From: Apostichopus japonicus
Lineage: Eukaryota; Echinodermata; Holothuroidea; Aspidochirotida; Stichopodidae
Assembly: GCF_037975245.1 (NCBI RefSeq)
Contig: NC_092571.1
Location: forward strand, 18,870,917-18,934,916
Direction: 5' to 3'
Length of the DNA stretch: 64,000 nt
Shown: in pieces, positions 23,001 through 53,660 of the stretch
Numbering within the stretch: position 1 is the stretch's first letter
How the letters are laid out: every line of letters begins with the position of its first letter
The notes under the pieces: model-generated
Database searches by the model: none
What the model was told of the DNA's origin: nothing
Seen by the model: only the letters and a program-made list of their open reading frames with translations
Program-made: the position numbers and the translations under genes

Positions 23001-26000
23001 TCGTAACGTGCACTTTTGCTAAAACTGACATCTTTCTCACAGGTCAACAATTCCTTAACTTTATTTTAAAGGACATCAATAGTGGTTTCAAAGATAAGAA
23101 ATAGCTCAAACTTATCCAATATATCTGGATATTATGACTATCCAAAGTTTAACAGTTCTTATGAGTTCTTTTTTCTCTCTCTCTTCCTTCAATTTGTATA
23201 AAATATATGATAGGTTCATAATCATACCATGTCTATTTTCAATATTATTTTAGGAAGAACTTGAAACTTTGAATAGAGCAGCAGAAGATATTAATACAAT
23301 GGAGCTGCTTTTGGGGGTGAGTTTCCAGGATGTGATTTCCTTTTACTTTCTTAATATGCTGCTAAGACTGAGCTTACAGTACTATCGACTGATTACATGA
23401 TAACAGTTTGAGTCATTGCAGTCATGTTTGAATGATATACTGTACGTCTCAGGATTCAGGGACATATATTGTACAGACATTTGTATTACATAGAATTTAG
23501 TCTGAATTTAACCTGGTGGATACTGTACTGTACAAAACAGTTTGCATCAGGAGACCTTACATACTTTGATAGCAGTTGAAGTTGTCAATATCTAATATAT
23601 GTTAAGGAGGAAGTTGACGTTGATTTATTGACTGGTAGAGCTATGTGCTTCCTCATTGTAAATAGGTTGTAGTTCCCCTTAGAAATGTGAGTGTTGGTTG
23701 CTCAGATTGTAAATATAGGACTAAGGGTTGTGGTTGATCCCCATGAGATCATATTGACTTAGACCTCTGGGAATCCCTTAAAAAGCAGTCCAGAGGAAGC
23801 TACCAGTAGTACATCAAGAATATTTTGTGGTGAATTTGTTGAAAAGAAGACTATAGACAAACAGACAGACAGACAGAAAGACCAGCTAACTTAATGCTTT
23901 GATTTAAACAAATATGCATTATGCAGAGGCCCAGTTGGGAAGTCAAAAACACACAATTGTTTTGACTGACTGAATATTTGCTGTTAGAGGTGGTACTGTG
24001 GTGATATCATACCCTCTCCTTCAACTCATAAATTGTCAACTGATCTGATTGAATACATTTGGCTTTGGTTTGTTTGCATAATATATATGTAAACACTTCC
24101 ATTTTTGAGGTAAACAGAATTAAACCATGAATTTGAAACCATCCTTTAGATGTGTTATATCCTGGTTATTTTTAAAACTGGTTTCTCTCAGCTCATATCT
24201 TAGGAAATGTTTTAAGCCAGTTGATGTTCAGTTTTCATTTCATATTTGGTTTTGCTTAAATTGTTAATTTTCCTCTTATACAGTCAAATACAGTCATTAG
24301 TGGTATTTTATCACATGACATTCTGAGCACCAAAGTTTGAGTATATAATACAGTATTTCGAAGCTCCAGCAAATCTTTTCGTATTAATAAGTTAATTTTG
24401 TTTCACTATACTGTAGTAAATAGCAAATTATGATAACCACAAACCGCCTACCAATTATGATAACCACAAACCGCCTACAAATTATAATAATCACAAATCG
24501 CCTACAAATTATGATAACCACAACCGCCTACAAATTATAATAACCACAAACTGCTTACAAACTATGTTAACCACAAACCGCCTACAAATGATAATAACCA
24601 CAAATCGCCTGCAAATTATGATAACCACAACCGCCTACAAATTATAATAACCATAAACCGCCTACAAATTATGATAACTACAAACTTCCTATAAATTCTA
24701 AATTGATTAAATACTATGCAGGAAAGGTTTAGTCTGGATATGTAGGAATACAAGTTCTTGTCTCTAATATCAGGTCGGCTTCCAAGCTGATCCAGTTTCC
24801 AATGATTACTGTATGTAACTTTAACATCCTCTACTGACCTTTGTGCAGCTTTGAGGCAGTAATTGGAATTGTGACTTTTTCCTTCTCTGTTTGATCAGGA
24901 AGCTAGAGTTAAGTTCAGAGCGGCCATGAAGGATGCAACTCGCAAGTTGAATGAACTTGGAGTCAAGTTGGGGAGCAGTGTAGAGAAGTCAAGAGTCTAC
25001 TATGATGTAAGAGAGAAAGCAAAAGAGGTTAGTTCACCAAACGATAAACAATCTTTAAAAACATATATTTGCTTTAATATTTCTTGTACAGTAGGAACAC
25101 CGCACATCTTGATAAGTATGGTTTGAGTTACAATCCATTTCTCAAAAATACAAAATACAAAATTCTATAAAACTATTGACTACTCATGAAATCTTTATTT
25201 TCTGCATAAATTAAATCACAAAAAAATTGTCAGTTTGTTTCACTTTTATGTAAATTCTACATCAAATTCCAAAGCTTCAACAAGAGACCCAAGCAGCAGC
25301 GGTAAAGTTTGAGCGAGCTAACAGTCATCTGGCTACGGCAAAAGAGATGGTGGAATTAGCTGAACAAGAAGCCTTGAAAGAAGGTCTAGTGTTTGATACC
25401 AACTGGCAGGAAATGTTGAATCAAGCCACCATGAAAGTAAGTTAAAAAGTTATATGCAGTTCCAAGCCATGATTGAATTCCAGTCTGCATATATGTTTAT
25501 TATATACATGTTTCTATATAAGTATGAGAAGTTGGAGGCCCTGATATTTTTCCAGGGTATCTTGAGCTGTTAAGTTGAATACCCCGATTGAATACCCCAT
25601 GGAATACCCCATTGAATACACCATTAAATACCCCATGGAATACACCATTGAATACCCCAATTGAATTCCCCATTGAATACCCCATTGAATACCCCATGGA
25701 ATACACCAATTGAATACCCCATTGAATACCCCATTGAATACCCCATGGAATACCCCATTGAATACACCAATTGAATACCCCATTGAATACACCAATTGAA
25801 TACACCATTGAATACCCCAATTGAATTCCCCATTGAATACCCCATTGAATACCCCATGGAATACCCCATGGAATACACCAATTGAATACCCCATTGAATA
25901 CCCCATTGAATACCCCATGGAATACCCCATGGAATACACCAATTGAATACCCCATTGAATACCCCATGGAATACACCATTGAATACCCTAATTGAATTCC

Positions 26001-29000
26001 CCATTGAATACCCCATTGAATACCCCATGGAATACCCCATGGAATACACCAATTGAATACCCCATTGAATACCCCATGGAATACCCCATGGAATATCCCA
26101 ATTGAATACCCCATTGAATACCCCATGGAATACCCCATGGAATACCCAATTGAATACCCCATTGAATACCCTATTGAATAATAAAGATGAATACCCCAAT
26201 TGCTATTGCTATCTATTTTTCAGATTCCATTTTTACATTGTGTGAGTGTTACAGATTTCTGCATGTTAACTTATATCCAGGACCTAGGCTGACAGCTGTG
26301 TGGACATTCTCGCAATACAAAGACTGAGTTTTTAAGTTCTCTACTCCTTCAATAAATAATCTAAAAGCTTCAAATACATTATCACACACCGTAGGTTCAC
26401 AAAGGCTTCATTTGAAGTACTTTTTAAATGAAGGCCAAACTTGATGATATCATTTCAGGTCAATGAGGCAGAAAAAGACCGACTCGAAAGCGAGGAGATG
26501 CACATGGCGACAGCGAGCAGATATGAAGCTGCGGAAAAAGAGGTCAAGAGGTTGCAACGTTCCCTCAAGAGAAATATTAATAAATCAAAACCTTACTTTG
26601 AAGCCAATAATGAATTTAAGTTGGTGCTGGAGGTAAGTTTGAAATAAAAGATATAAACATAAACATTAGCAACAGTTAGGATGTGATATGCTATGTTAAG
26701 AAATTTTGTAGATAACATCATGTGCATCATATAACATTGACAACCAAAAATTAATGTTGTGTGTGTAATTTCTAGTCAATAAAAAAATGTATGTTATTAC
26801 ATACGATAATATAGGTTTAACATAATAAATATAACTTTAATTACAACCAAACGAAAGATGGGCAGTTAGCAATCTACAGAGTCTTTTAGATAAAAGAACA
26901 AGACAGTAAATCTAGTAAATCATAATCAATGAACTGAGTGGGTGGTCTCATGTTTTATGGGATCCATTTAGTCAATTGAAACTGAAACGCAGTTTATATA
27001 CCAAAGCCATGCATAACAATGATCCCTTACCATGAAAGGAGATATTCAGGAAACGCACAGAAAGTGTAGTTGAACACATGCTTCTACCTGACCATAGATT
27101 TTGATATCTGGTGCATCCATGCATATTCAAGTCTGTTATCACTGGAGCCTTGTAATATGCAATCTAATTTACTCCAGTCATGTATGATGATTCTGACACA
27201 TATCATGCATTTAACGACATGCTAACCCTATTAATAGTTTGCCTAATTGCACCTGATTTTTCATGGATGCTTCTAATCTCTGATTGTCTTCATGACTGAT
27301 TAGTTTCTGGACAGCAGTTGTCTCACTCTTGGAGCTGATGCGTTATATCCTGTAACCTGCAATTCTAGAAGAAGTTGCTGTCATACCTGGTTCTCTCACC
27401 CTTATTGAAAACATTAATATGAAGGAACAGAAAATATTTGAACTTGTTGCCAAAGTACCTTTGAATACTGTAGTTTCCCAAAGTGTATTATACACTTTGT
27501 ATATAATTTGTAAGGTTCAGGTTAAAACACAACATTATTGTAATCATGTTTCTTGACAAACAAAATGTTCAAATGGTATTTTCTAGTAGGCCAGCATAGG
27601 TAGAAAGAGAGCATGCAATGTCTGGCATGTATGAATGTGTTTATCTGACCATTTTAGGCATGTACACTTAAACTGGAGTCTAAGTACACTGTGGTTTAAT
27701 TTTGTACTTGGTTTGTGCATCCCCCGTACAGAGTGTTTTGGTGCACAAACAACTGCTCAAGGTCAAAACATTGGAAATGGGATAATTTGAAAAGTAATTA
27801 GCTTGAACAAACATTAACAAGAGAATGCTATGCTAATTATTTCAATTTGAAAGCAAACAACTACAATATCAAAATTACTCATTGGATTTTGAAGCGTAAC
27901 TTTATATAGTGTTTCACAGATGGCCAGCTTGTTTAAAAAAGATATTACTATTGGTTTCCATGGAGATTTATTGATCAGCTACACTTGTCTGAGTTAGTGG
28001 TCCAGTGATTCTGTTTACTACTTTGGCACCCTCCAGGCACCCTCCAGACACTGGTATTTTGTCAGTTTACCCTGTGTTTGATCCTTATCAGGCAGGCTCG
28101 AAGGAATTTGCCTCATTCTGTGTGTGCTTAACACAGTTACAGTGTCACAACATTGATGGTATGGTTTATTTAATATGCGTGGTGTACTTTTGAGTTCAAG
28201 GTATTATTTCTCTAATTGTTCTGATGTTATCAGTGTTACCTCTTGTTCTAGTCATAAAAAGAAACTGAATTTCTCACTGGATTTAGTGACATTTATTTAG
28301 GCATACATAGAACCTACAGTAGCTGCTTGGCAAGCTGTTACAGTAAAGTACATTTGTACTATAAGGAGCCAAAAAAACATTTTCAGATTTTCTTATCTTC
28401 ACTTACTCTCCATTTCATGTTACACTGCTCAATTAAACTGTTGATAAAGTTCTGCAGACACTGTCCCAACTCTAAAAGTCTCCAGATATAACATCCATGA
28501 TACCATGCACTCTGCCAATGTAAGATTGAATAACCTACAATTCCATAATCTCCTAACTTTGCCCCAAATTCAGTTGTAAACATATTCTTGCAACCAATTG
28601 ATAGTGAAATCAGTAAGTTAACAATATTGTAAAATGATGAGATCCTATATGTTTTTGCTGTTAAACATAAATCAGAAAAAGAATCCTCCCTCTTTGTGAC
28701 ATTCACTGATGGTTTAAGTAAACCTGTCAGTGTGTAACATTTTGTTTGATGTGTTTTACAAGCATGGATTTATTCTCATTTATTTTTGTATCTTTACTAA
28801 CAGGCTTTGAAATCAAAAGTTGACGTGTTGACCGAGCAAGTAAGTTTAGCCAAGGGTAAATACAAAGCTGCGCTACAAAACCTGGAGATAATAAGCAGTA
28901 ACATTCACCATCAGAGGCATCAGAGTCCTCCAGAGCAGAGGGAGTCTGGAGTCGGTGCTGAGAGCACTTTTATCGAGAGTAAGGATGGTCCAGACAGCCC

Positions 29001-29508
29001 TCTCTCCTCACCTCATATTAGCCTCAAGGGTCTAGGCTTCCAGGAAGTTATGGAAGAATGTTGCCCTTTGGAGAAGGATTATGAAGGACAAAACTTACTA
29101 CTACGCGCCCGTCGCAACCCTTGTAGAAGCATATCGGTACCGTCTGAAGGGGATGAAACTAACAGTGAAATTGATCCCCTCTCAATCATGAGTCGGACTC
29201 TCTCAACAGATCACTTGGACAATCTCTCTGACACGTCAAGCTTTGTTTCTATAGAGGCCATCTTAGACCAGGACAGATTGGACACTGACAGCATCCTCTC
29301 AGAAGAAGGACTGGAATCACAAAATTTGAAAGGGGGCACAGATGGTAGTGTTCTGGCAAAGAATGGTGAGAAAGATGAATCAGCAACTGAAGTTGAAGAT
29401 GTGTTCTTAGTGGTTCCTGGAGCAGAATGCCTCACTCCCGTTGACCAACTCCATATAGATGAAACCCTCACCCCTTCGTTAACCCAGGATGAAAAAGTGC
29501 TCAACTAA
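20043..29508 (+). CDS. SH3BP5: SH3 domain-binding protein 5-like (SH3BP5/SAB family), six exons, complete
   Basis: SH3BP5-family proteins are long antiparallel coiled coils. Vertebrate members act as exchange factors for Rab11, and SH3BP5 (Sab) anchors JNK at the mitochondrial outer membrane. Exons: 20043-20114, 23254-23316, 24899-25027, 25275-25436, 26459-26632, 28804-29508. All junctions are phase 0 GT-AG, and the product is 434 aa (human SH3BP5 is 455). The coiled coil spans about residues 24-245, with family signatures ELETLNRAAEDIN, ARVKFRAAMKDATRKLNELG, FDTNWQEMLNQAT, RNINKSKPYFE and YKAALQNLEIIS. The tail is acidic and Ser-rich. A basic-hydrophobic patch (RRNPCRSISVP) could be a JNK docking site, but this is inference. 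The start has A at -3. The usual vertebrate C-terminal end is not seen. SH3BP5 versus SH3BP5L cannot be separated here. Confidence 0.93.
20115..23253 (+). other. SH3BP5: SH3BP5 intron 1
   Basis: An AT-rich intron of 3.1 kb. A weak inverted pair of GAAGTTCGCC-type ends lies at about 20322 and 20795 and may mark a degraded TIR element. No conserved exon is seen in it. Confidence 0.5.
24425..24695. repeat. About 26-27-bp minisatellite, ten copies, in SH3BP5 intron 2
   Basis: The units read ATTATGATAACCACAAACCG then CCTACAA, with point variants such as GATAAC/AATAAC. The array lies about 200 bp before exon 3. Confidence 0.9.
25575..26190. repeat. 12-13-bp minisatellite in SH3BP5 intron 4
   Basis: Units of GAATACCCCATT, GAATACCCCATG and GAATACACCAATT alternate for about 600 bp, roughly 50 copies. 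The unit lacks stops on the minus strand, giving three overlapping frames of 142-220 codons that are not genes. Confidence 0.95.
26633..28803 (+). other. SH3BP5: SH3BP5 intron 5
   Basis: 2.2 kb of AT-rich intron without a recognisable exon, tandem array or transposon terminus. Confidence 0.5.
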
Positions 29509-34394: not shown

Positions 34395-36295
34395 GAGAAT
34401 GTCTTATTGACCCATGTAGGTAAGCAGCTGTATCAGAGAGATTGTCTTATTGACCCTTGTAGGTAATTAACTGTACCAGAGAGAATGTCTTATTGACCCA
34501 TGTAGGTAAGCAGCTGTATCAGAGAGAATGTCTTATTGACCCATGTAGGTAAGCAGTTGTATCAGAGAGAATGTCTTATTGACCCATGTAGGTAATTAAC
34601 TGTACCAGAGAGAATGTCTTATTGACCCATGTAGGTAATTAATTGTATCAGAGAGAATGTCTTATTGACCCATGTAGGTAATTAACTGTACCAGAGAGAA
34701 TGTCTTATTGACCCATGTAGGTAAGCAGCTGTACCAGAGAGAATGTCTTATTGACCCATGTAGGTAATTAACTGTACCAGAGAGAATGTCTTATTGACCC
34801 ATGTAGGTAATTAACTGTACCAGAGAGAATGTCTTATTGACCCATGTAGGTAATTAACTGTATCAGAGAGAATGTCTTATTGACCCATGTAGGTAAGCAG
34901 CTGTATCAGAGAGAATGTCTTATTGACCCATGTAGGTAAGCAGTTGTATCAGAGAGAATGTCTTATTGACCCATGTAGGTAATTAACTGTACCAGAGAGA
35001 ATGTCTTATTGACCCATGTAGGTAATTAACTGTATCAGAGAGAATGTCTTATTGACCCATGTAGGTAATTAACTGTACCAGAGAGAATGTCTTATTGACC
35101 CATGTAGGTAAGCAGCTGTACCAGAGAGAATGTCTTATTGACCCATGTAGGTAATTAACTGTACCAGAGAGAATGTCTTATTGACCCATGTAGGTAATTA
35201 ACTGTACCAGAGAGAATGTCTTATTGACCCATGTAGGTAATTAACTGTATCAGAGAGAATGTCTTATTGACCCATGTAGGTAAGCAGCTGTATCAGAGAG
35301 AATGTCTTATTGACCCATGTAGGTAAGCAGCTGTATCAGAGAGACTGTCTTATTGACCCATGTAGGTAATTAACTGTACCAGAGAGAATGTCTTATTGAC
35401 CCATGTAGGTAATTAACTGTATCAGAGAGAATGTCTTATTGACCCATGTAGGTAATTAACTGTACCAGAGAGAATGTCTTATTGACCCATGTAGGTAAGC
35501 AGCTGTACCAGAGAGAATGTCTTATTGACCCATGTAGGTAATTAACTGTACCAGAGAGAATGTCTTATTGACCCATGTAGGTAAGCAGCTGTATCAGAGA
35601 GAATGTCTTATTGACCCATGTAGGTAAGCAGCTGTATCAGAGAGAATGTCTTATTGACCCATGTAGGTAAGCAGCTGTATCAGAGAGAATGTCTTATTGA
35701 CCCATTTAGGTAATTAGCTGTACCAGAGAGAATGTCTTATTGACCCATGTAGGTAATTAACTGTACCAGAGAGAATGTCTTATTGACCCATGTAGGTAAT
35801 TAACTGTACCAGAGAGAATGTCTTATTGACCCATGTAGGTAATTAACTGTACCAGAGAGAATGTCTCATTGACCCATGTAGGTAAGCAGCTGTATCAGAG
35901 AGAATGTCTTATTGACCCATGTAGGTAAGCAGCTGTATCAGAGAGAATGTCTTATTGACCCATGTAGGTAATTAACTGTACCAGAGAGATTGTCTTATTG
36001 ACCCATGTAGGTAAATTAACTGTACCAGAGAGAACGTCTTATTGGTCCATGTAGGTAATTAACTGTACCAGAGAGAATGTCTTATTGACCCATGTAGGTA
36101 ATTAACTGTACCAGAGAGAATGTCTCATTGACCCATATAGGTAAGCAGCTGTACCAGAGAGAATGTCTCATTGACCCATGTAGGTAATTAACTGTACCAG
36201 AGAGAATGTCTTATTGACCCATGTAGGTAATTAACTGTACCATGTCTCATTGACCCATGTAGGTAAGCAGCTGTACCAGAGAGAATGTCTTATTG
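34395..36295. repeat. 43-bp minisatellite, about 44 copies, with a nine-unit (387-bp) higher-order repeat
   Basis: The unit contains GAGAGAATGTCTTATTGACC and CATGTAGGTAATTAACTGTA. A second unit type has AAGCAGCTG in place of AATTAACTG. The ordered series of nine unit types starting at 34502 repeats at 34889 and, partly, at 35276. The rare variant AAGCAGTTG sits at 34545 and 34932, exactly 387 bp apart. Confidence 0.93.
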
Positions 36296-39200
36296 TTCAG
36301 TCTGTTTTTCAGACTTGTTACAAGTCCTTTTCTTATGTGATAGATGGTGAATTGTTTATTCAGTTCCATATCACATATATTGTTACTTTTGATCACATTT
36401 TAATGCACATGATGCATTCCAATTTTCTGGTTCAGTCAGACAATACTGATGCATATATATTTCTTTGGCATGTAATTATACTCTTTTGCATCTAATTAAT
36501 TTCATTTGCATATTTGAGGGATATTATATTAAGTGATGACAAGAGGTTGATTTGATTTTTCTTAGTTTCTTATTTTCCTTTTAAAGTTTCCAATTTGGTT
36601 TTATTGCAATATTGCCTTTTATAGCCAGCCAGGAATTTATTAGTTTCAGAACAATTTTGTTTATCTTTGTTTCATTGCTTTAAAGCTACAATTTTGTGTT
36701 TACCTTGCTACAGTTTGATGGTAAAATATGAAAGGTATGTTACCTGATAAAAACATTATCTGTTATTTACCATCACCAATATCACATCAGGAACAATTAA
36801 ATGTTAACATTGCATCCAAATTTTTCATTGTAGACTAAAGGGTAATCGTATACATATCTTTATTAGATTGAGCAATATCTAAATTTGTGTGAATTTTATA
36901 TGGCTTAGGCATGTGACACAATACAGCATGCAGTTGAAAACACAAAATAAGCTGTATACTCGAATATGAAAGTTACCTCTTAGTGTTATATTATCCTGAG
37001 ATCTCAAATCATTAGAACTGAATAAGCACCAGTTTTTCTTGTTTGAAGTCAATAGTTAAAGCTGAGATTAGAATGGAAAGTGAAGAAATTATTAGTTACA
37101 CAAACATCAAATTTAGTAATTTCTTTGACCTGACCTTCATATTTTGATGTTCCATTAAATTTATCGCAGTTTCATGAAGATGCTGATTTGCAGAACATTA
37201 TTGTGTGACTTACCAAAACCGTGGGTTATTTGCAAATTGCAGCTGTTGTGCTCAGCCATTATTTGAAACTGTGTGCATTATCTATCATAATATTATCATT
37301 GCATATTCTCCATTTTGAAAAATCATCAAATTTTTGCATTATTGAATCAGTGTTTCTCTGTGACTAATATAAATTATCTTGATAAACAGTCAGATTGAAT
37401 ACAGTGGTAAGCTATTAACTAATTAGTTAATTAATTAATTAGTGAAACAATTTAAGAATATTTAGTGTAAGGAGATTGTCAAGTTTTAATAAGGAATTAC
37501 AAACATAGAAGAACCAAACTCCTTAAATGTGAAATTGCTGATTAAACAAAGTCAGCTCTTCCTGAATGAAAGGAATTAAATTCTTTTAAAAACTGCTCTT
37601 ATTTGTGAAATTTGCTGTCAAAGCCAAATATTTTAAGTATGATGAATACAAAGAAAAAGGTTAAGTTTTAAGAGTTTCATGGTTGTTGTTAATCTAGCTA
37701 GATCTTATGAAAAAGTAGGAAAGAAAATAAGCAATTATTAAAAGAGAACTAAAAGTTTATGAAATGTTTGTATTTCACATTATTTTTGGAATGGCCTCAA
37801 ATATAAAACACAATATATTGAAACAGATCCATTTGATGTGAATCATTTTGTTTTTGTTTATAACAAGCAATTATGGAAGTTGGTTTTACCAAACCATAGA
37901 GATGTAATGTTTCCATTGCATCAACCAAGTAAAGGTATATACATCTACAATTCATGTTCATCTACAATACATCTACAATTCAAGTTATTCATGTCTGCAG
38001 GTAACAATATAGCAATCAAATAAACTCTTCCTTAGTTGAAGATAGGCTGCTATCCAATAAGACAGTCCTTATGCTACAACTTTTGAGATGTCTCAGTTTT
38101 TAGTCCCAAGTGTCATACATTAGAGAAAGTTATGTAAAGTCTGAGTTGTGATGATACCTGTATTAGTCAACACCTTCCAGTCACAAGTTAGCCCACCTCT
38201 TTCTTCTCACCATCACCCCTCCCCCCCCCCCCCCACCCACTCATACACTGTGCAATGAAATATACAGATGCAGTGGAAATCTGTTCCTATTTATTGAAAA
38301 GATTTTTCTCTGTAGTATATATCAATACTGTGGAGGGAGAGCACATTTGTAAACTTGCTGGGGATTCCTGGCACAGACCTAGCTGTTCCCTGTTTGTCCA
38401 CTATGTAAATGATAACCTGAACACATGGGCATTGTGTGCAGGCTAGTTCCTTATAGAAACAATAGTCTCAACTTATTGGAGTAACTGTTGGTTCCCATTT
38501 TGCAATGGCATTTACAATGTTTTCTCATAATATCTATAAATAACTCATGTTGCGGTAGTTTATCAATCATTTTACTTCCCAGATTTTAATTGCTTTTGAA
38601 AAATAGGATATACCACTACCAACAGCAAGTAACAGCACCCCAATAGAACGTAATGTCTGGTCTGAATTTTGTGTGCACTTTCGATATTCTTCTTGATACT
38701 GCGGTGCGGTGAATTAAGTAGGGTTTAAATTTTGGTTGTTAACAATAGTTTGCCTCTTGTAATGTTAATTGTATGTTTGGGTGCCATGACCTGCCATGAC
38801 CATGCCATGACCTGCCATGACCTGGACTCTATCCTAAAGTATGCTAGTATGATCTATAATATCAGATGACAATGTGTTTTCTATTAACGCTAGAGTCGGC
38901 ATATCATATCAATTGTTTATTCATGAAGAATGACTTTATGCATAATGTTAGTATCGATAATGTTAGTATCGATATGTCATAGTCCAAGAAAGCAAATGAG
39001 TGCTGCAAATGTTTGCATAGCTATTCTGTGGCTTTTCAAGGTAACAGAGTGCCACGCATGGATGATATTTAACAGAATTTGCCTTTGATAAAAGTTAATG
39101 TGTTTTTAAAGTGTTATTTAAGACCATTTAAGTCTTTTGTGTCACACTCAAGTTTTGTGTTGCATCTGAGGAACTGATCTGATGGTCTCAATATTAGTCG

Positions 39201-39875
39201 AAATGGTCCAGCCACGTTTATCGATGAGGCCCAGATGTTTAAAAAGTCATTTCTCACAATAAAAAAGTGCCATATATTGAAATACAACTTGTTTAGCGGT
39301 CTAAAACACATGTTACATTTTTGACTAAAGTCACCCTTTAACCACTACACTATGGTACTCAGCTCATTGAGTGCTGATGAAATTTACAACTGAAGGCATG
39401 CAACCATCAGGGCTTAGAATCAAGTATTTACAGAATAATGTGTATTTGTTCTCGAAGCAAAGGGAAAAATTTTCAATCTTCAGTTAAAAGTTATGTTTGT
39501 CTAGTTTGTTTTTTTCTAGGCAGTTCATATTTATTGTCATTAACAGTCTGCATTTACTTTTAGATCACAATTACTTCCATTGTGTTCTCAGATGTTCTGC
39601 TTGATTGAGTCTGTCTTATAATAGTCGTATCTATAGCATAGGTCATATAGCATATACCTGTATGATATTAGTTCACTGTAGCCTTCTGAAAACCACGTAC
39701 AAGATAATGGGGTTAGTAGCACACTTGATTCTGATTAGGTCCTATATCTGGTGATTACAACTGTTGTTCCTAGTCAGCAGTTTTTAGTAGTCCCTTGTTG
39801 TTCTTCTTCTTCTAGTGGTTGGTTTCTCTTAAGTTTCGTCCAATACAGGAATGGGAAGACCAAGCACAACTTAAA

Positions 39876-42800
39876 ATGGAGGAAGGCAAGGATGGTGCAG
39901 AAAGTCAAATCTTTCATGAAACCATTAAGGTAAGTATATACTCTGAACTCATACATTCACATCCACAATTTTAACTTCAACAAAGTCATTGCAATGGTGA
40001 CATGTTTTAGCTAACAGCCAATTGTTTTGTTTCTGGATCTGTTAATTATATTCTAATATGCTAGCTAGACCTCCACTTCATTGCTATTCTTGAAAACACA
40101 GATCAGGGATTAGCTGGTCCAAGTACTATGGATCAATTAACCAGGAGACGTCTGTGATTTTCCCATCTGAACTGATGGCAAGTATGAAGTTAAAAGAGAC
40201 AGGACTGTTTGGCTTACCTTCAATATCGCAGCTTTGTTGTTTTGCAAGTATCAGCCTAGCATCTTTGTGGATAAGTCTCTACTTATTTGCATATTAAATG
40301 GAGGACTGAGGGTGTTATTGTCATCAAGTGATTAAGCTAATTAAAGAGATTAAGTCCAGACTGATAATTCATCACTTTGAAAGGATTCAAAGATAGAAGA
40401 AAAAAGAAATATGAGTAATGTTCATGTGAAGCAGTGTTTTACAGGAACAGTTAATAGCTGATTGTAGACTGAGTAGTAACATGTTTTGGAAAGACAGCAT
40501 AGCAGGTCTATATATGACATGTTACTATCGTAATTTTTTTCTGACACTGTAGAAAGAATTGGAAAAGTTAAACAATGCATCAGAAGAGATCAATTCTTCA
40601 GCAGCTGTCCTAAAGGTAAGTATATCTATCTATAAGGTTACATCTCTATATTTCGACGTCTCTATGTTCCGACAAAAAGAAATAATTCGGGACAATTTTT
40701 TTTTATCCAAAAAATCGTTTGTACCAAGAAAACAAGTTTTCAGATCCCAATATTTTTGTGACCAAAATTTTTTTGGACTCAGAATTATTTTGGACCAACA
40801 TTTTTTTGCACCAAATTTTTGGAGACCAAAAAAAAAATGTGACCCAAAATTTGTTGTGACCCAAACAGTGCTTGTGATCAAAAATTGTTTGTGACTCGAA
40901 ATATGTTTGTACTCCAAATTTGTTGGACAAAAATTCTTTGGACCAAACTTTGTGACCAAAGAAGAATACTGCAAGCAACGCGACGCGATAGCTTTTTTTT
41001 TTGTCCACTCTGCAGGCGACTTTTTTTTTATTGCTCAAGCGATATCTGTAGTTGTCATGTTTACCCGCCCTATATTTCGCGTGAGTGTGGACGTTTTCAA
41101 ATGCCCCCAACTGAGCCCCGAGGTTGGCTATTGTCCCCTACACCATTTGCGAAGGCTACTGCCCACCCCCCCCCCCCACAAAAAGGTAGGCCTACAACAT
41201 ATTTTGTTCTAAATCTAAACATATTTTATTCGAAAATTGATTTGGCCCAAAACGATATTGGTCCCAAAAAAATTGAGTACAAACAAATTTCGGGTCACAA
41301 GCAATTTTCGGTAACAAGCACTTTTGGGTCATAACAAACTTTTGGGTCAAATTTTTTGGTCGTGAAAATATGTTGGTCTCAAAATATTTGGTCCGAAAAA
41401 TGTTGGGGTCACAAAATTAGTTTTGGGTGCAAACAAATTTTTGGATGAAATAAAATTGCTCCGAATTTTTTCTTTTTGTCGGAACATAGAGACGTTGGAG
41501 CATGGAGACGTCGGAACATAGGGATGTCACCATCTATAAAGTTAAAATGCAGTTGCTTTAAGCTTCACTTAGAGTGAAACCTGTATATATTCATTGTAAC
41601 AAATTGTACTCATTCTAAAGTATTGTATTTTACACCACCCTTTAGCAACCACAATATGTCCTTTTATCGTAACTAACCAACCAACCTACCCTAAGAAGCA
41701 TAGGGCTGTGGTCACTCTTTGGAATTTTTGTATATGACGCATGTTAGTAGAAGTAGTTAAGAACAATGAGTGTGTTATAGCATGAAGGTTTTACCTCCAT
41801 GGTTATAATGAGACACTCTGAATACAGAAGTCAAAGCAATAACAACTCCTCTTTGAATCATCTCTTGTATCATTATCATCAAGAATATTACACTTAATAT
41901 CATATTAATTTATATATAAATACTAAATAACAATTGTATTAAATATGAAATACTGAATGTTCTTCGTATTTTTGGCAGGAATTGAAGATGGCCTACCTGT
42001 TTTCTTTAAAAGATTTGTCAAGAATGATTGGCAAACGACAACAGGAATACGGAACAAGTGTAGAAGAGGCAAAACCCTACTTCAAAGCAAAGATGGCGAC
42101 CGAAGAGGTGAATATATAATTAATGTTATCAACTGTGGATAAGGTGTTTGTGTTCATGCACTTGTTTGTTAGACAGATGTGGCCATGGAGTGGGTGGGGG
42201 TGGGGGGGGGTGTGTGGGGAATCCAATGGGTTATATCTGCCAGTCTATTTCACCTGATCCTACTGTAAAGAACTGGTCTGTAAGGGGTGTCTGGTGGTCA
42301 AATCCCTGGGAGAGAGATTGGCACGATAAAATGACACAATTCAAGTTTACTTCCTTATCTTATCCAGGGGCGTATCCAGGATTTTCCAATAGGGGGGGCG
42401 CCAGGCATGAATGATCGCCGTCCTGGGGGATGGGTCTAAGGGGAGGGGTGTACAATTTTTGCTTTCAAAGAAGGGCTGAAATGCAAAATGGTGTCATATG
42501 CACGGGCGGCGATCCGTACTTCCGAGTGGGGGGGGGGATATGACCTTGTTGACTATCTAAGCGTAGCGCCACCATGGGTTGGCGCGAAGCGTAAAAAAAA
42601 TTTTTGGGATTAACAAACCCTCTAGATGGCCGGAAACGGCACTTCCCGAGGTTTCCAAGCGGCATATACCCAACTTTAAAATAGGGATGTCATGTCCGAA
42701 ATATCTCATAATCAGGATCCAAAATACTTTTTTTTTTAAATTTCGGGTGTTTTTTTGGGAAAATTGCCCCTGTCAATCTTGTTTCAGGCGCAACGTTAGA

Positions 42801-45800
42801 ATGTTCGAGAGCCCTGTTATATTATTCGATGAAGAAAATGGCCTCATGCAGGCTATTATAGGCCTATACACATGCAATACACAATTACACATAGTTACAT
42901 TCCTAGGTACCGATTGCTAGGGCATCCAGGTGAAACGTGTATTAAGCATTACCCTGGTTACATGAGATTCTCAGCTGTTCGAGGGAACATGTACGTGTGT
43001 AGACCTACTATAGGGCCTATATGAATACTATGAGGGTGCATATATATACTATATCAATACCGTGGGCGCAATAATACATTTTGTTGTTATAGGGCCAATG
43101 AAGCCTACAGTCAACTATTTTTGCTTTATAAAGACGCTTTATTTGAAAAGATCGCACTGCGTTTATGGTAGGCGAGAAATGAAGCTAAAAAAGAGCCGTA
43201 CATTAACGAAGATGCATAAATGTAGGCATGAAAATATTCTTATCCCTGGCATTTGGTGGGGGGGGGGATATGGTGCATTACATCCCCTCCACCCATTTTC
43301 ATGGGGGATATAACCCCCCTCCACCCAGGATCGCCGCCCATGGCCATATGTGATCCATTTTTCGACCTTAATAATAAGCAACATTTCCAGTAAATATGGA
43401 CACAAAATGCACAATTTAGTATGGCTGGCATGTCATTTAGTGTTTATAGTGATTATACAAACACAATTACCATCTATGTTTCTAAAACTATTATGCCGCC
43501 GAACTTCGCCAGAACCTTTTTTTGGCAAACAAAAAATAAAGCATACGGGAGGGGGGGGGGGGGGTTAAGCGATCACCGACATCTCACATAAAGGTCGTCA
43601 TCAATTTTTTTTTTTTTTTTTTGCTAAACTTTTTTTTTTTGGGTGACGGCCAATAGGGGGGGCGCGCGCCTGTTGCGCCCCCCCCTGGATACGCCCCTGT
43701 TATCCTCGTATCATTTGCTCCCAACAAGCATGTATGGCAAGCTAAATGCCCAATAAAAAAAAATAAAACCCTGGTTAAATCGGTTCATTTCTTCCTTTGT
43801 AAAGTGTTAAATACATACAACCGCTCATTTTGACAGTAACCACACCGTGTGTTCTTTTCTTTGTCAGCTCTATGACAAGAAGCATGCTGTGGCAGATGAA
43901 TTATTAAAAGCTATGCTTTGGCTGGAATCAGCTAGAGAAGTAGAGAAACAGACAGAAGAGGAAATTTACGAAGGAAAAGTATTCCATGAAGAAGCTCAAC
44001 GGAGGCTGAATAAAGTAACAATTGAGGTAAAACAATAAACTAAACATTGCCAAAAAGAACTTCAAATCAAACTGATGTTAGGCTATGAATAAGATTGAGT
44101 AGATAGGTAAACATCAACATAGGTGTAGGAGGCATGGGGGGGGGGCTGGTGGGGGGGGGGGGCTGGTAGGGGGGATGGTGGGGGGCTGCAGCCCCCAACC
44201 AAATATTTTTGTGAAAATTCGGGCAATTTGCTGAAAATTTTTTTTTTACTGAAAGAAAAATAAATTGATATGTATTTTTCAATGGTCAAACTTATATGAT
44301 TATTATCATTATTATTGTAACGACTTGCCCAAAAATAACCAATATGGAAGGGTAATAACACTTCAAATGATTGTATGTTATTGGCATGCAATGTAATAGC
44401 CAATGCATGCCTATATGATATGTACATGAACATGTTGAACGTGCGCGGAGCGAGCGAAAAATGTTGGTTACATTTTTCGGGCAAGTCGTTACAGCCCCAC
44501 CCCCCCCCCCCAAATCAAATTAGACTCCTAATCCTATGTACATCAACAGTATTAATTACCTAGACATTATCTATTTATTTTCAAAACTTAAAAATTTGAT
44601 GTCTATATATCCTGGAGCAAGCCATATATTAACTTTGGCTTCTAAACTTTGGCTTCGATATAAATATATAAATAAACATAAAAATATATAATATAATATT
44701 CTGGGTCTCAAGCTCTATCTAGATACCTAGAGAGTGGAGCAACTGCAATATTATCAATTTTAATAAGTTTTAATAATGAAAATATTATACAAGTTTGTCT
44801 AGTCTGTTTTCAGAATTTACCAATAAGATCTCATCTGCCAACAAATTCCTTTATGTATGAATTCATAATTACTCCAGCAATGGAGATTTTGAACTAAGTT
44901 GAATATTTTATAAAGGTTATTCAACTTCTATATTGAACTTCTTTCTTGGGTCAAAGGTCAACAAAGCTTGTGACTATAAAAGTTTGAAGGATGCTGAACA
45001 TCTCTCCTACGTGTACAGATGTAAAGAAGCAGAAGAGAAACTCAGTAAACTGAAAATGGCCCTCAGGAAGCCAGTGGAGATGGCCAGTCCCTACTACAAT
45101 GCACTGGACGAAGTGGACAGCATATTGGATGTAAGAACTGAATCATTTCTACACACTATATCATTTGATGTTTCTCTGCTGTAGTGATGAGAGAGACCTT
45201 CTGTACTTTAGCTTGGTGACTTGAGAATTGTTGTTATTTTACTATTTTAAACCTATAGTCACCTGTAATAATCAATGGGTATTTTGAGGTCATGAGTGGT
45301 CCACCTCTGAACACCTTGTAAACTCTAAAACTTTGGATGAACTGCAAACTCAGTATGTGACTCTACCTTAGAAAGTACAAAAAACCTATTGTTTCTCATA
45401 TAGGTCAAAGTTTATTTGAGGTAACAGAGGTCAAAGTCTGAAGACTTTGGAAAATCTTTATTACTTCATAAGCAAACCTTGGATGAACTCTTGACTCTCA
45501 TATAAGTCAAAGTTTATTTGAGGTCACCAGAGGTGAAAGTCTGTAAACTTGAGGACTTTAAAAGTAAAGCTTGGATGTACTTCATACTTGTTATGTCAAT
45601 CATACCTAATGAGTACAAGCAATCTGCTATTTTTCATAGAGTTCAAAGGTTATATGAGGTCACCACAGGTTAAAGTCTGAAAACCTTGCAAACTCAATAA
45701 CTTTCATAGAAAACTTTGGATGAACTTCATACTTGATATGTGGGTCCAACTTAGTAAGTAAAAGACCTGGTTGATTTCATTGAATTCAAAAGTCATTGGA

Positions 45801-47049
45801 GGTCACCGTTGGTCAAATTCTGAAAACCTTGTAATAGCAATAACTTCAAAGGTACAGCTCCAATGAACTACATACTTGGGAAGTGGATGCACGTTATCAG
45901 GTAAACGAACCTTGTGTGCATAATTTACTTTCAATATTTGCACATAGAATGTGGCAAGGAATCACTTATCTTTTTAGCTTTCTGGTTTTTATCAATACCC
46001 CTGTACGTGTAATGTAATTGGAATGAGATGATGTGTTTAAAGACAATTTGTACAGAAATGGTGCGTAAGCTGTTGCACAGCTTGGGATAAAAAAAAAATA
46101 TGTTTTGGTGTGTATGTGTGTTAACAAAAGTGTCATAAACTCCAAAATCATAAAGGTGATTTGCCAACTTAAAATTGATGGGTTTATATCTGGGTTTTGA
46201 ATGTAGTGACTTCATGACGTCATAGGTCAAAGGGCACAAATCAAAACCATCGAAATGAACAAAATGATAATATGTAGTGTAGCAAATGAGACTGATACTC
46301 AAGGAGGAGTGACGATTCTATTGTTTTAATGTAAAATGTCAAAGGTCATATGATCAATGAAAGTCAATTCAATGATGAAACTTGGCTAACTTTGTACCAA
46401 AAAGATTTACAAACTTCTCTTAAACCAATAGTATGATGAACTTCCAACTTCAGTGAGTGTATACCTAAACAAGGGCTATTTAGCCTCTGTGATGACTTCA
46501 GAGGTAATATTGTTCCAGAGGTTCAGAGGCTAATAGTATGTTACCATGGTGACAATATGGAAAGCTCCTCAGACCCCCTTATATGAGAGCAGGCTTTAGG
46601 GACCCAGGGTTACACCCTCCTATATGAGATTGTGGATCCACTTTGCAATGTCATGTCAAGGGAAGGCCTGGAAGGTCTGTAATGGTAGAGCTTTAAGCAT
46701 TTCCAACAGGACTTTGTCTCTGTGAGCATTAACAGAATGACTTCACACTTACTATGATATTATAACCTGCTGTTTTATTTTCATTTGATAGAATCTCAGA
46801 TCAGAAATAGAAGATACCGTGATAAAAGGCAAATGGGCCAAGCTCGTCTACGAAACATCCTTTAAAAAACTCGAACTCATCAGCGAAATGATACACAACC
46901 AGCGTTCCTTGGTCCAAAATTATCAAAAGCCACATACATTAATAAACTTTAACAGTGACATTCCCCTGTATGCAACAACTGATGACATCTCGTTCTACTG
47001 CAGAAAACCAAAACTTGCAGAAGCATCCATCAAATGGAACTCACTTTAA
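39876..47049 (+). CDS. Divergent SH3BP5-family paralogue (six exons, short C-terminus)
   Basis: Exons: 39876-39929, 40553-40615, 41979-42107, 43868-44026, 44957-45130, 46792-47049. They give 278 aa and all junctions are phase 0. Exons 2, 3 and 5 have exactly the lengths of the SH3BP5 gene upstream (63, 129 and 174 bp), and exon 4 is one codon shorter. Signatures are KELEKLNNASEEIN, GTSVEEAKPYFKAK, ASPYYNALDEV and KKLELISEMIHNQR. By eye, exon 5 is about 24% identical to its counterpart. The acidic Ser-rich tail is replaced by about 45 unrelated residues ending KLAEASIKWNSL. The start at 39876 has AAA before ATG, but exon 1 could instead begin at an acceptor (AG 39847-39848) with more exons upstream. 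A coiled-coil role like SH3BP5 is inferred; Rab11 or JNK activity is unproven. Introns 2 and 3 hold transposons. Confidence 0.85.
40636..41531. mobile_element. Foldback-like TIR element in paralogue intron 2
   Basis: The ends are GGTTACATCTCTAT and the reverse complement of GGTGACATCCCTAT. Both are followed by copies of GACGTCTCTATGTTCCGAC. ATCTATAA flanks both sides (40628-40635, 41532-41539), an 8-bp target duplication. Each arm is a run of degenerate subrepeats of about 20 bp built from GACCAAAATTTTTTT-like words. The right arm has them in the opposite orientation. A GC-richer centre (about 40960-41200) has no convincing frame. The superfamily is not assigned. Confidence 0.7.
42365..43699. 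mobile_element. hAT-like TIR element in paralogue intron 3 (outer of a nested pair)
   Basis: The ends are CAGGGGCGTATCCAGG and its exact reverse complement. Both termini also share CCAATAGGGGGGGCG further in. TTATC flanks both sides (42360-42364, 43700-43704). The CAG...CTG ends fit hAT, but only five of the expected eight flanking bases match. No transposase frame is visible. Confidence 0.7.
42501..43342. mobile_element. TIR element nested inside the outer hAT-like element
   Basis: The ends are CACGGGCGGCGATCC and the reverse complement of CATGGGCGGCGATCC. The flanks are GTCATATG (42493-42500) and GCCATATG (43343-43350), seven of eight matching, as expected for an 8-bp hAT-type duplication. 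It inserted after the outer element. Confidence 0.65.
44118..44538. mobile_element. Probable non-autonomous TIR element in paralogue intron 4
   Basis: The left end CATAGGTGTAGGAG and the right end (reverse complement CATAGGATTAGGAG) form imperfect TIRs next to a G-run and a C-run. The flanks read AACATCAA and TACATCAA. An inner inverted pair, ACGACTTGCCC at 44320-44330 and GGGCAAGTCGT at 44480-44490, also fits a TIR element. Confidence 0.5.
45260..45910. repeat. Degenerate 103-141-bp tandem repeat in paralogue intron 5
   Basis: About five diverged copies share GAGGTCACC, GGTCAAAGTCTGAAAACCTT and GGATGAACTTCATACTTG in the same order, at spacings of 103 to 141 bp. It is an old array of reduced similarity. 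Confidence 0.7.
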
Positions 47050-47230
47050 CCGTGCTAATGGATAAAAACTTACCTTCAAGCCAGAAACATTAATAAACTT
47101 TAACAGCAACATTCCCCTGTATGCAACAACTGATGACATCTCGTTCTACTGCAGAAAACCAAAACTTGCAGAAGCATCCATCAAATGGAACTCACTTTAA
47201 CCGTGCTAATGGATAAAGACTTACCTTCAA
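46936..47230 (+). repeat. 151-bp tandem duplication of the paralogue gene end
   Basis: The segment from ACATTAATAAACTTTAACAG through the last coding residues, the stop and CCGTGCTAATGGATAAA is present at 46936-47086. It is repeated with few changes at 47087-47230. The first copy encodes the last 37 residues; the second is downstream of the stop and in the presumed 3' UTR. Confidence 0.9.
47092..47097 (+). terminator. Candidate polyadenylation signal of the SH3BP5 paralogue
   Basis: AATAAA lies 43 bp after the stop codon inside the second copy of the 151-bp duplication. The same hexamer sits in the coding copy at 46941-46946. Use of either is unproven. Confidence 0.35.
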
Positions 47231-47570
47231 CACCGTCACATGGGGAGTCACCTTAAATTGCGCTTTGCTCACAATCAATTTCTACTGCAGTCACAATTGT
47301 TTTCATTACTAATTTATCAAATATTTCACAATTCAACAATTATTTGTAAATTGTTTTATTCTGTCAGATGTGAACTGCTTAAGTTTTGTTGTAAAGTGAC
47401 TAAATCATAAGATTTTTGAAAATTTCTTAATGGTAGACCAATCTCCGCAAGGAATGTGGCAACATTTGTATCATTGTATTTGTTATATCATCATATTTGC
47501 ATATCATCATATTTGCATATCATAATATTTGTACCAGTTAGAACAGGTGAGGGACAGTTGGATGGGTGGG

Positions 47571-47680
47571 GTTTGACAGGTGGGAAGGGAAGGCATTTGG
47601 GTGGAGTTTGACAGGTGGGTAGGGAAGGGCACGTGGGTGGAGTTTGACAGGTGGGTAGGGAAGGGTGGGTGAAGATGGGT
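47571..47680. repeat. 35-36-bp G-rich tandem repeat, three copies
   Basis: GTTTGACAGGTGGG recurs at 47571, 47606 and 47642, with intervening GGGAAGGG tracts. Confidence 0.8.
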
Positions 47681-48558
47681 GGTGACAAATAAGGAAATTT
47701 CAACGGAGGGCACTCAATGACATTATGGGGATGTTGAAAAATTGTACAAACTGAAAGAGTTGAGCGAGTGTTGCTAGCTAATAAGGATATTGACATTCAG
47801 ATATTTACTGGTTGAATTGTACATGTGATACAAAATGAGCATGGCATTATTTTGTAGGGCATTTTACTTTGTATGGGATACATGGAACTGTCAAGTTACG
47901 CATCCTATCTTAAAAAAAAAAAAAATTAGGGAACATTTTGTGGATGATGCAAGTAACTTTAATTGTTAAGAGAAGTATTTTATTGTGGTTGGTAGAGAAT
48001 TCATTGTGGGATGATAAATGAAAATGTAAATAAAGAAATGTGGATAGAGTAAAATGTGAATGCTTTGATGAATGGGGCATAAGTTGTAGGGATGGCATAT
48101 AGTTAGTTGCTTGTATCTACCAGTGGTACTAATATATAGTGTCAACATTTTATTTGGGAGCCATAAAACCAGGTCATTGTGACACACGAAGACCAGAAAT
48201 GAAACTGACGCTTGAGGGTATGTACAAATTGTCTCATCTTTGTTACAACAATTTCTTTGAAAAAGAGAGAAATAAAAGAAGAATATGACCACATTAAACA
48301 AAACCAATGGCCTGCCACTCTTTGGTATGAAGCTGAAGTGTTCAATTAAAACAACGTCCCATTAGACACAAGAACTTCAAGAAGCTTTTAGCAAAACTCA
48401 ATATTTTGACTTTGTCTGGTGATTCCATCTACATAAATACAGTTTCCATGCGACAACAGATCGGATTGTTTTTATTTACAAAGTACAGAAATGATATCTC
48501 TACATAGAAATTGGATTATACTAACATTATCTGAAAATACTACAATATGTTGCTGCTG

Positions 48559-51402: not shown

Positions 51403-53660
51403 CCTCCTAATGGACTAGCAGCTCATGGTGGGCAATAATGAACCATCTTAGCTAACACCACCTCCTAATGGACTAGCAGCAAATGGTGGGCAGTAATGAA
51501 CCATCTTAGCTAACACCACCTCCTAAAGGACAAGCAGCTCATGGTGGGCAATAATGAACCATCTTAGCTAACACCACCTCCTAAAGGACTAGCAGCTCAT
51601 GGTGGGCAATAATGAACCATCTTAGCTAACACCACCTCCTAATGGACTAGCAGCTCATGGTTAGCAGTAATGAAACAGCTCAGCTAACACCACCTCCTAA
51701 TGGACTAGCAGCTCATGGTGGGCAGTAATAATCCATCTTAGCTAACACCACCTCCTAATGGACTAGCAGCAAATGGTGGGCAGTAATGAACCATCTTAGC
51801 TAACACCACCTCCTAAAGGACTAGCAGCTCATGGTGGGCAGTAATGAACCATCTTAGCTAACACCACCTCCTAATGGACTAGCAGCTCATGGTGGGCAGT
51901 AATGAACCATCTTAGCTAACACCACCTCCTAATGGACTAGCAGCTCATGGTTAGCAGTAATGAACCATCTCAGCTAACACCACCTACTAATGGACTAGCA
52001 GCTAATGGTGGGCAGTAATGAACCATCTTAGCTAACACCACCTCCTAAAGGACTAGCAGCTCATGGTGGGCAGTAATGAACCATCTCAGCTAACACCACC
52101 TCCTAATGGACTAGCAGCTCATGGTGGGCAGTAATGAACCATCTCAGCTAACACCACCTCCTAAAGGACTAGCAGCTCATGGTGGGCAGTAATGAACCAT
52201 CTCAGCTAACACCACCTCCTAATGGACTAGCAGCTAATGGTGGGCAGTAATGAACCATCTTAGCTAACACCACCTCCTAATGGACTAGCAGCTCATGGTT
52301 AGCAGTAATGAACCATCTCAGCTAACACCACCTCCTAATGGACTAGCAGCTCATGGTGGGCAGTAATAATCCATCTTAGCTAACACCACATCCTAATGGA
52401 CTAGCAGCTCATGGTGGGCAATAATGAACCATCTTAGCTAACACCACCTCCTAATGGACTAGCAGCTCATGGTTAGCAGTAATGAACCATCTTAGCTAAC
52501 ACCACCTCCTAAAGGACTAGCAGCTCATGGTTAGCAGTAATGAAACATCTCAGCTAACACCACCTCCTAATGGACTAGCAGCTCATGGTGGGCAGTAATA
52601 ATCCATCTTAGCTAACACCACCTCCTAATGGACTAGCAGCTCATGGTGGGCAGTAATGAACCATCTTAGCTAACACCACCTCCTAAAGGACTAGCAGCTC
52701 ATGGTGGGCAGTAATGAACCATCTCAGCTAACACCACCTCCTAATGGACTAGCAGCAAATGGTGGGCAGTAATGAACCCTCTTAGCTAACACCACCTCCT
52801 AATGGACTAGCAGCTAATGGTGGGCAGTAATGAACCATCTTAGCTAACACCACCTCCTAATGGACTAGCAGCTCATGGTTAGCAGTAATGAACCATCTCA
52901 GCTAACACCACCTCCTAATGGACTAGCAGCTCATGGTGGGCAGTAATAATCCATCTTAGCTAACACCACATCCTAATGGACTAGCAGCTCATGGTGGGCA
53001 ATAATGAACCATCTTAGCTAACACCACCTCCTAATGGACTAGCAGCTCATGGTTAGCAGTAATGAACCATCTTAGCTAACACCACCTCCTAAAGGACTAG
53101 CAGCTCATGGTTAGCAGTAATGAAACATCTCAGCTAACACCACCTCCTAATGGACTAGCAGCTCATGGTGGGCAGTAATAATCCATCTTAGCTAACACCA
53201 CCTCCTAATGGACTAGCAGCTCATGGTGGGCAGTAATGAACCATCTTAGCTAACACCACCTCCTAAAGGACTAGCAGCTCATGGTGGGCAGTAATGAACC
53301 ATCTCAGCTAACACCACCTCCTAATGGACTAGCAGCAAATGGTGGGCAGTAATAATCCATCTTAGCTAACACCACCTCCTAATGGACTAGCAGCTCATGG
53401 TGGGCAGTAATGAACCATCTTAGCTAACACCACCTCCTAATGGACTAGCAGCAAATGGTGGGCAGTAATGAACCATCTCAGCTAACACCACCTCCTAATG
53501 GACTAGCAGCAAATGGTGGGCAGTAATGAACCATCTTAGCTAACACCACCTCCTAAAGGACTAGCAGCTCATGGTGGGCAATAATGAACCATCTTAGCTA
53601 ACACCACCTCCTAATGGACTAGTAGCTAATGGTGGGCAATAATGAACCATCTTAGCTAAC
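51403..53660. repeat. 58-bp minisatellite, about 39 copies, with a ten-unit (580-bp) higher-order block
   Basis: The unit contains CACCTCCTAATGGACTAGCA and GCTCATGGTGGGCAGTAATG. Variants are AAAGG for AATGG, TTAGCAG for GGGCAG, and AATAATCC for AATGAACC. The rare ACACCACATCC variant occurs at 52384 and 52964, 580 bp apart. The order of variants from 52211 to 52760 is repeated at 52791-53340. Confidence 0.93.

Follow-up and report, generated by a model that had tools for sequence, protein, structure and literature searches.

A probable old tandem duplicate of SH3BP5 in a sea cucumber, fast-evolving and without the long tail

Human SH3BP5 (SAB) is a Rab11 GEF that is represented in the PDB by 6DJL, 6IXE, 6IXF, 6IXG and 6IXV. 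Its activity is carried by alpha1/alpha4, and residues L49, L52, N53, N60, Y243, L247, S254 and H258 are reported to be completely conserved in representative metazoa and responsible for exchange; the hinge core of its V shape comprises 12 named positions, and the purpose of the V shape and of the alpha2/alpha3 arm was left open (PMC6419104). A tail-less form of the human protein (1-265) has unchanged GEF activity (PMC6138693), and the long tail is described as carrying a JNK-docking motif, KIM2 (PMC10978662). Human SH3BP5L is likewise described as a Rab11 GEF (PMC6138693). Here we consider a window of 64,000 nucleotides from Apostichopus japonicus, in which an ordinary SH3BP5 gene (gene A) is followed by a strongly diverged second gene of the same family (gene B, 39876-47049, + strand).

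Exon plan and family membership

Gene B has six phase-0 exons and five introns, all with a GT donor and an AG acceptor, and its product has 278 amino acids in total. Its exons, and a tandem duplication at its 3' end, are as follows.

39876..39929, + strand: exon 1, 54 bp, MEEGKDGAESQIFHETIK; start codon uncertain
40553..40615, + strand: exon 2, 63 bp; start of alpha1, with equivalents of the human Rab11-contact residues L49, L52, N53 and N60
41979..42107, + strand: exon 3, 129 bp; remainder of alpha1, hinge, start of alpha2
43868..44026, + strand: exon 4, 159 bp (gene A has one codon more); alpha2/alpha3 together with the connector
44957..45130, + strand: exon 5, 174 bp; alpha3, the hinge with PYY, and the first part of alpha4
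46792..47049, + strand: exon 6, 258 bp including the TAA stop; end of alpha4, then an unrelated tail of 47 residues
46927..47077, + strand: tandem duplication, copy 1, 151 bp; spans the stop codon, with most of the tail before it and the beginning of the 3' flank after it
47078..47230, + strand: tandem duplication, copy 2, 3' of the gene B stop; 153 bp aligned, 5 mismatches

The corresponding exons of gene A are these.

23254..23316, + strand: equivalent of gene B exon 2, 63 bp
24899..25027, + strand: equivalent of exon 3, 129 bp
25275..25436, + strand: equivalent of exon 4, 162 bp
26459..26632, + strand: equivalent of exon 5, 174 bp
28804..29508, + strand: last exon, 705 bp including TAA; end of alpha4 and tail

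The reading frame is open 5' of the gene B ATG at 39876 as far as 39816, which takes it beyond a possible acceptor whose last base is 39848, and exon 1 may be longer, or internal. The PF05276 (SH3BP5) profile matches the gene B protein at E=1e-32 (114.2 bits, against a cut-off of 25) over residues 15-234, corresponding to positions 5-226 of the 231 in the profile, the next family being at E=0.13; only four PDB sequences match it at E up to 1, all of them human SH3BP5 (best E 4e-13). When the two pieces that form the Rab11-binding face were searched alone, PF05276 was returned at E 0.0029 for one and 0.00085 for the other, neither score reaching the curated cut-off. Judged from its sequence, gene B is a real, intact, protein-coding gene of the SH3BP5 family, with the whole four-helix domain. 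In viral and genome contig collections none of the pattern matches (0/374 and 0/160) was confirmed as a relative, as expected for an animal gene, and tRNA and Rfam scans within the window gave no matches.

The two genes share much of their exon plan. The four internal exon ends that could be compared all fall in the same alignment columns, and the original prediction proved accurate as to the six phase-0 exons of gene B, their coordinates and their GT-AG introns, the lengths common to both genes (63, 129 and 174 bp), the single-codon difference in exon 4 (159 against 162 bp), and a protein identity of about a quarter in exon 5 (14/58, or 24%). It was also right that an acidic, Ser-rich tail (in gene A, 196 residues after the helical domain, with 41 D/E, 14 K/R and 25 S) has given way to a short unrelated end (47 residues, with 4 D/E, 5 K/R and 5 S, and hence not acidic) in which no Pfam match was found. 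Its claim that all six exons match the upstream gene holds for exons 2-6 but was not confirmed for exon 1: the region from about 11.7 to 23.25 kb was scanned three times, either for exons that open with ATG and close at a phase-0 donor or for an end resembling the ...DPRIQ of the human protein, and no convincing first exon of gene A emerged, so partners have been located for five of the six gene B exons.

Divergence and origin

Identity of the gene B protein is 29.6% to gene A, 24.9% to human SH3BP5 and 27.7% to human SH3BP5L, while gene A is 48.6% identical to SH3BP5 and 50.0% to SH3BP5L; the SH3BP5L sequence used here, on which every comparison with that protein rests, is a provisional one. 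Relative-rate tests place the excess of change on gene B (61 unique changes, against 10 in gene A), and its branch is 2.12 substitutions per site long, that of gene A 0.22. Third codon positions of the two genes are only 34% identical and dN is 0.69; dS is saturated, so that no dN/dS ratio can be given. The introns of the two genes show no significant match. All this bears out the earlier description of a strongly diverged, old tandem duplicate whose exon plan has been preserved, and gene B is best read as an old, fast-evolving, tail-less tandem paralogue of gene A. The idea that the two genes have no non-coding DNA in common was ruled out by a stretch of 137 bp present in both gene regions (29765-29893 and 39010-39144).

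How old the duplication might be, and whether gene B has a counterpart in vertebrates, was approached through an unrooted tree of four proteins (gene A, gene B, human SH3BP5 and the provisional SH3BP5L). The best tree joins genes A and B, though with a RELL value of only 0.80; AU p-values for the three topologies were 0.805, 0.249 and 0.051, none of them excluded at 5% (IQ-TREE regarding the resampling as too small for AU), and the arrangement pairing gene A with SH3BP5L and gene B with SH3BP5 was marked as excluded by RELL and ELW. The distance of gene B from gene A is almost as great as that from the human proteins, which would suit a paralogue that predates the phylum, was kept in tandem here and has been lost or is unrecognised in vertebrates, its low identity reflecting both age and rate; an unrooted set of four proteins does not distinguish a duplicate of local origin from one of greater age. 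This reading, which concerns origin and is thus compatible with the function proposed below, seems to us rather unlikely, because a local duplication would account for the neighbouring positions and the identical exon ends (although shared ancestral introns would look alike), because the best tree, such as it is, joins the two genes, and because the rate test shows gene B to be fast, so that its low identity needs no great age. Orthology of gene B with vertebrate SH3BP5L is very improbable. Gene B is slightly nearer to the provisional SH3BP5L than to SH3BP5, and the tree pairing them, with gene A beside SH3BP5, is the one with AU p 0.249; but gene A too lies a little closer to SH3BP5L than to SH3BP5, its absolute identity to SH3BP5L being far higher than that of gene B, and there is no excess of sites joining gene B with the provisional SH3BP5L (six site patterns for that tree, six for genes A and B against the human pair, and three for the remaining arrangement). 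SH3BP5 and SH3BP5L are, moreover, likely to be a vertebrate-specific pair. The suggestion that gene B stands further off than the two vertebrate genes agrees with its identities, which show no special tie to the provisional SH3BP5L, though the four-protein tree with AU p 0.249 would join the two. Among the matches listed for literature on duplication or evolution of the SH3BP5 family, and on SH3BP5 in sea urchins and sea cucumbers, there was no description of such a copy; in the sea urchin match SH3BP5 occurs only among the cited references.

The Rab11-binding face, the arms and the tail

The part of gene B that has been best kept is the face that would meet Rab11. At positions where the other three proteins agree (the provisional SH3BP5L included), gene B retains 17 of 21 residues on the face and 21 of 53 elsewhere (Fisher p=0.0018), and leaving out SH3BP5L gives much the same result (17/24 against 26/80, p=0.0017). 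Its identity to human SH3BP5 is likewise higher on the face (19/43) than in the rest (34/170; p=0.0026), a difference that is not significant between gene A and human SH3BP5 (24/43 and 80/171, p=0.31) or between SH3BP5 and the provisional SH3BP5L (23/43 and 72/171, p=0.23). Seven of the eight residues reported as completely conserved in representative metazoa are present, and in exon 6 the equivalents of Y243, L250, E251, S254, I257 and H258 are all found, the exception being a hydrophobic replacement, L247F. Alanine mutants of N53, N60, S254, I257 and H258 of SH3BP5 lose all or most activity, and L247, which is part of a hydrophobic patch meeting Rab11 F48/W65, is needed for it; replacement of T64 by Ala raised activity in the human protein, and Ala is the residue found at the equivalent position in gene B.

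The rate test does not separate face from rest (unique changes in gene B and gene A 7:2 and 54:8, respectively; Fisher p=0.60), and the idea that this test itself would show the face to be spared was not borne out; changes unique to gene B, counted per site, were 7/43 on the face and 54/170 in the rest (p=0.058). The argument from the face therefore rests on retention and identity. Outside the face, positions agreed by the other proteins are kept worst in alpha1/alpha4 (4/18) and better in alpha2/alpha3 (17/35), and retention on the face could be due in part to the way the ends of alpha1 and alpha4 pack rather than to binding of Rab11. Of the hinge core, 10 of 12 positions are identical or hydrophobic/aromatic, as read from sequence only; the exceptions are L87 to Arg and V88 to Gln, where gene A has Leu and Gly, and the provisional SH3BP5L Gln and Gly. 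Non-face hydropathy of gene B follows that of gene A (r=0.50) and of human SH3BP5 (r=0.34), none of 5000 permutations being as high. With its short, non-acidic tail, gene B does not have the long C-terminal JNK-docking tail of a SAB-type JNK scaffold.

Probable function, and comparison with known systems

It seems probable on balance that gene B is an intact, old tandem duplicate whose product is still a Rab11 GEF with the V-shaped fold, differently regulated or placed, since change has been least on the Rab11-activating surface, which speaks against a protein either dead or wholly repurposed. Gene B would have arisen through an old tandem duplication beside gene A; its protein would still fold as a V-shaped coiled coil, bind Rab11 between the beginning of alpha1 and the last part of alpha4, and pull switch I out so that GDP is released, as does human SH3BP5. 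Rather less certainly, the changed arms and missing tail may have led to regulation or placement unlike those of gene A, such as use in different cells or at different membranes, and tail-borne kinase docking may be absent.

A decaying pseudogene or unexpressed relic might be suspected from the fast change in gene B and the tandem duplication at its 3' end, but is extremely improbable: functional residues have been kept, no stop codon interrupts the 278-codon frame, and all ten splice borders are intact. In neutral simulations, 0.25 substitutions per site gave a mean of 8.4 stops and no stop-free copy in 1000 runs, and drift of even 0.1 substitutions per site left only 11/1000 copies stop-free; taken with the simulations, the absence of stops and the ten intact borders make a relic unlikely. 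A new biochemical role, in which gene B would bind another Rab, or bind Rab11 without exchange (as a decoy), or serve as an unrelated coiled-coil scaffold, we consider unlikely, for although L247F lies in the patch that meets Rab11 F48/W65, and the very long branch, the unrelated tail and the poor retention in those parts of alpha1/alpha4 that lie off the face could all be accommodated by it, the other named exchange residues (including N53, N60, S254, I257 and H258) are present and it is on the Rab11 face that residues have preferentially been retained. The new role originally proposed for the duplicate gains little from this, as the residues that open Rab11 are its best-kept part and the tail is dispensable for exchange in human SH3BP5 (PMC6138693). 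More speculative, and quite unlikely as it stands, is the idea of a naturally arisen exchange factor for Rab11 with separation of function, its face constrained, its arms and tail released or re-selected for a new place or control, and L247F tuning the form of Rab11, or the Rab, that is accepted.

With its Rab11 face kept best and its other parts changed, gene B can be set beside gene A as a natural comparison between the parts of the protein concerned with exchange and those concerned with placement or regulation; apart from that, gene B is an ordinary fast-evolving duplicate. Gene A resembles it in all four compared internal exon ends and in three exon lengths, and differs in sequence (29.6% identity), in its slow evolution and in its tail of 196 residues. 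The whole helical domain of human SH3BP5 aligns to gene B with one short gap, and most named exchange residues are common to both, but the gene B domain is only 25% identical, has L247F and is without the long tail. Human SH3BP5L (in the provisional sequence) has the same domain, at 27.7% identity; gene A, at 50.0%, stands much closer to that protein. Among invertebrates, the family is represented, by description in PMC6138693, by Drosophila parcas and by REI-1/REI-2 of C. elegans, an animal that also has two homologues.

Structure and family of the second copy

The downstream of the two SH3BP5-family genes in the window (gene B) is, by the evidence of its sequence, a genuine, intact and old tandem paralogue of the ordinary SH3BP5 gene upstream (gene A), fast-evolving and best preserved on its Rab11 face, i.e. 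the positions equivalent to the human SH3BP5 residues that contact and activate Rab11. The relevant features are as follows.

5175-11766, plus strand, upstream: phenylalanyl-tRNA synthetase beta (FARSB-like) gene; PhetRS_B1 above cut-off, CLM and B5 below cut-off
23254-29508, plus strand: gene A; exons of 63, 129, 162, 174 and 705 bp
29765-29893 and 39010-39144, same orientation: shared non-coding stretch, 137 aligned bases, 77% identical
39876-47049, plus strand: gene B, six exons
46927-47230, 3' end of the last exon of gene B: 151-bp unit duplicated in tandem, the copies differing at 5 of 153 aligned bases
56426-59131, minus strand, downstream: dishevelled-like gene; Dsh_C twice, just above cut-off, and a weak DEP match

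The original prediction had the anatomy of gene B right: its six exons have the coordinates claimed, all are in phase 0 and their borders are GT-AG. The exon architecture shared with gene A was likewise borne out (internal exon ends fall in identical alignment columns in all four cases compared), although the exon-for-exon match extends to five of the six exons, the partner of exon 1 not having been located (scans of about 11.7-23.25 kb gave no convincing exon 1 for gene A). Joined, the exons encode 278 residues, of which 15-234 match PF05276 (Pfam SH3BP5) with E=1e-32, the second-best family having E=0.13; for gene A, the same profile gives E=6.7e-72. Among 177,635 distinct PDB sequences, the four matches of the gene B protein at E up to 1 are all human SH3BP5. 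These matches identify the product as a true member of the SH3BP5 family rather than a coiled coil of a general kind.

The reading frame is open 5' of the ATG (39816-39876), beyond a possible acceptor ending at 39848, and a seven-codon upstream ORF, read by eye, lies at 39851-39874, which makes it uncertain where the protein really begins. Intron 2 contains a MITE-like element (40640-41511) whose 91-nt inverted ends show 82% complementarity and whose interior carries degenerate 17-bp repeats. In intron 3, a 16-base motif, CAGGGGCGTATCCAGG, borders the stretch 42365-43699 on both sides as perfect inverted copies (shuffled sequence would give a mean of 0.00), and no inverted pairs of at least 20 bases were found within the stretch; it is possibly a DNA transposon. 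The window also has many long minisatellite arrays (34395-36295, 33080-34053, 32004-32589, 12516-13130, 51403-53660 and 25575-26180), whose repeat units range from 12 to 146 bp; one unit, of 58 bp, occurs 39 times and another, of 43 bp, 44 times. None of the open-access papers listed in our searches describes such an SH3BP5 copy, and quite possibly a database already carries an annotation of the gene.

Age, rate and selection

The duplication is old: genes A and B are 34% identical at third codon positions, have the base in common at 8 of the 21 fourfold sites where the amino acid is the same, and are saturated in synonymous distance. When the DNA of 22000-31000 was compared directly with that of 39000-48500, no significant match was found between introns and a single one elsewhere, outside the coding parts of both genes. 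This is the 137-bp stretch, 257 bp past the gene A stop and about 730 bp ahead of the gene B start, which has no third copy within the window and, for its first copy, no Rfam match. Being better preserved than the coding DNA, it is younger, constrained or a separate repeat; it may be a dispersed repeat, a local duplication or a shared element.

In the helical domain, A and B are identical at 63/213 positions (29.6%). Gene A shares 104/214 (48.6%) with human SH3BP5 and 107/214 (50.0%) with SH3BP5L (whose sequence is provisional in this and all other comparisons), gene B 53/213 (24.9%) and 59/213 (27.7%), respectively, and the human pair 95/214 (44.4%). In relative-rate tests, unique changes numbered 61 in B and 10 in A with human SH3BP5 as outgroup (p=1.4e-9), and 61 and 13 with the provisional SH3BP5L; tree branch lengths were 2.12 and 0.22. 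Gene A is thus an ordinary slow SH3BP5 gene and gene B the fast copy. Site patterns revealed no particular tie of gene B to SH3BP5L, although the AU test did not reject a tree pairing the two (p 0.249).

There are no stops in the 278 codons, and the ten splice borders are intact. When neutral drift of the gene B sequence was simulated with uniform substitutions, indels and splice-site loss being left out, 0.1 substitutions per site produced a mean of 4.3 stops (11 of 1000 runs stop-free) and 0.25 a mean of 8.4 (none of 1000). Set against such drift, the open frame and intact borders make long-term selection on the protein very likely.

Rab11 face, tail and likely role

The action of human SH3BP5 on Rab11 is defined by two structural papers, in which Rab11 rests on residues 39-67 and 240-262 (PMC6419104; PMC6138693). 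We took positions 47-67 and 240-261 as the face and set them against all others. Of the positions on which gene A, SH3BP5 and the provisional SH3BP5L agree, gene B retains 17/21 in the face vs 21/53 elsewhere (Fisher p=0.0018); without SH3BP5L the figures are 17/24 and 26/80 (p=0.0017). With any of the other three as focal sequence no significant difference emerged (p 0.14 to 0.44), in tests that require agreement with gene B and so have few positions. Plain identity gives the same picture for B with human SH3BP5 (19/43 vs 34/170, p=0.0026) and with A (20/43 vs 43/170, p=0.009), and little difference between A and human (p 0.31) or within the human pair (p 0.23). The relative-rate test alone did not separate face from rest (B:A unique changes 7:2 vs 54:8, p=0.60); unique changes of B per site were 7/43 and 54/170 (p=0.058). 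Of the agreed positions off the face, gene B keeps 4/18 in helices alpha1/alpha4 and 17/35 in alpha2/alpha3. The alpha1/alpha4 coiled coil is reported to retain exchange activity (PMC6419104), so protection here covers the contact face and not the entire catalytic coiled coil.

PMC6419104 names eight residues that are invariant across representative metazoa and account for activity. Gene B retains seven of them, L247 being replaced by Phe, and likewise has L250, E251 and I257. At the position of human T64 it has Ala, a change reported to raise the activity of human SH3BP5. In the core of the hinge, the bend of the V-shaped coiled coil, 10 of 12 positions carry the identical or a hydrophobic/aromatic residue. 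With L247F and two polar residues in the hinge, the activity may have changed. The original prediction of a diverged old tandem paralogue stands; the new role that it proposed is weaker than the better-supported reading, that gene B would still be a Rab11 activator under different control.

Past the helical domain, gene B has 47 residues, with no match in Pfam, and gene A 196 (41 acidic, 25 Ser). The 151-bp unit contains most of this short tail, the stop codon and part of the 3' flank; its second copy, sitting 3' of the stop codon, does not alter the protein. Since tail-less human SH3BP5 (1-265) is unchanged in activity (PMC6138693), loss of the tail is no argument against exchange. It does argue against JNK docking of the kind described for SAB (PMC10978662).
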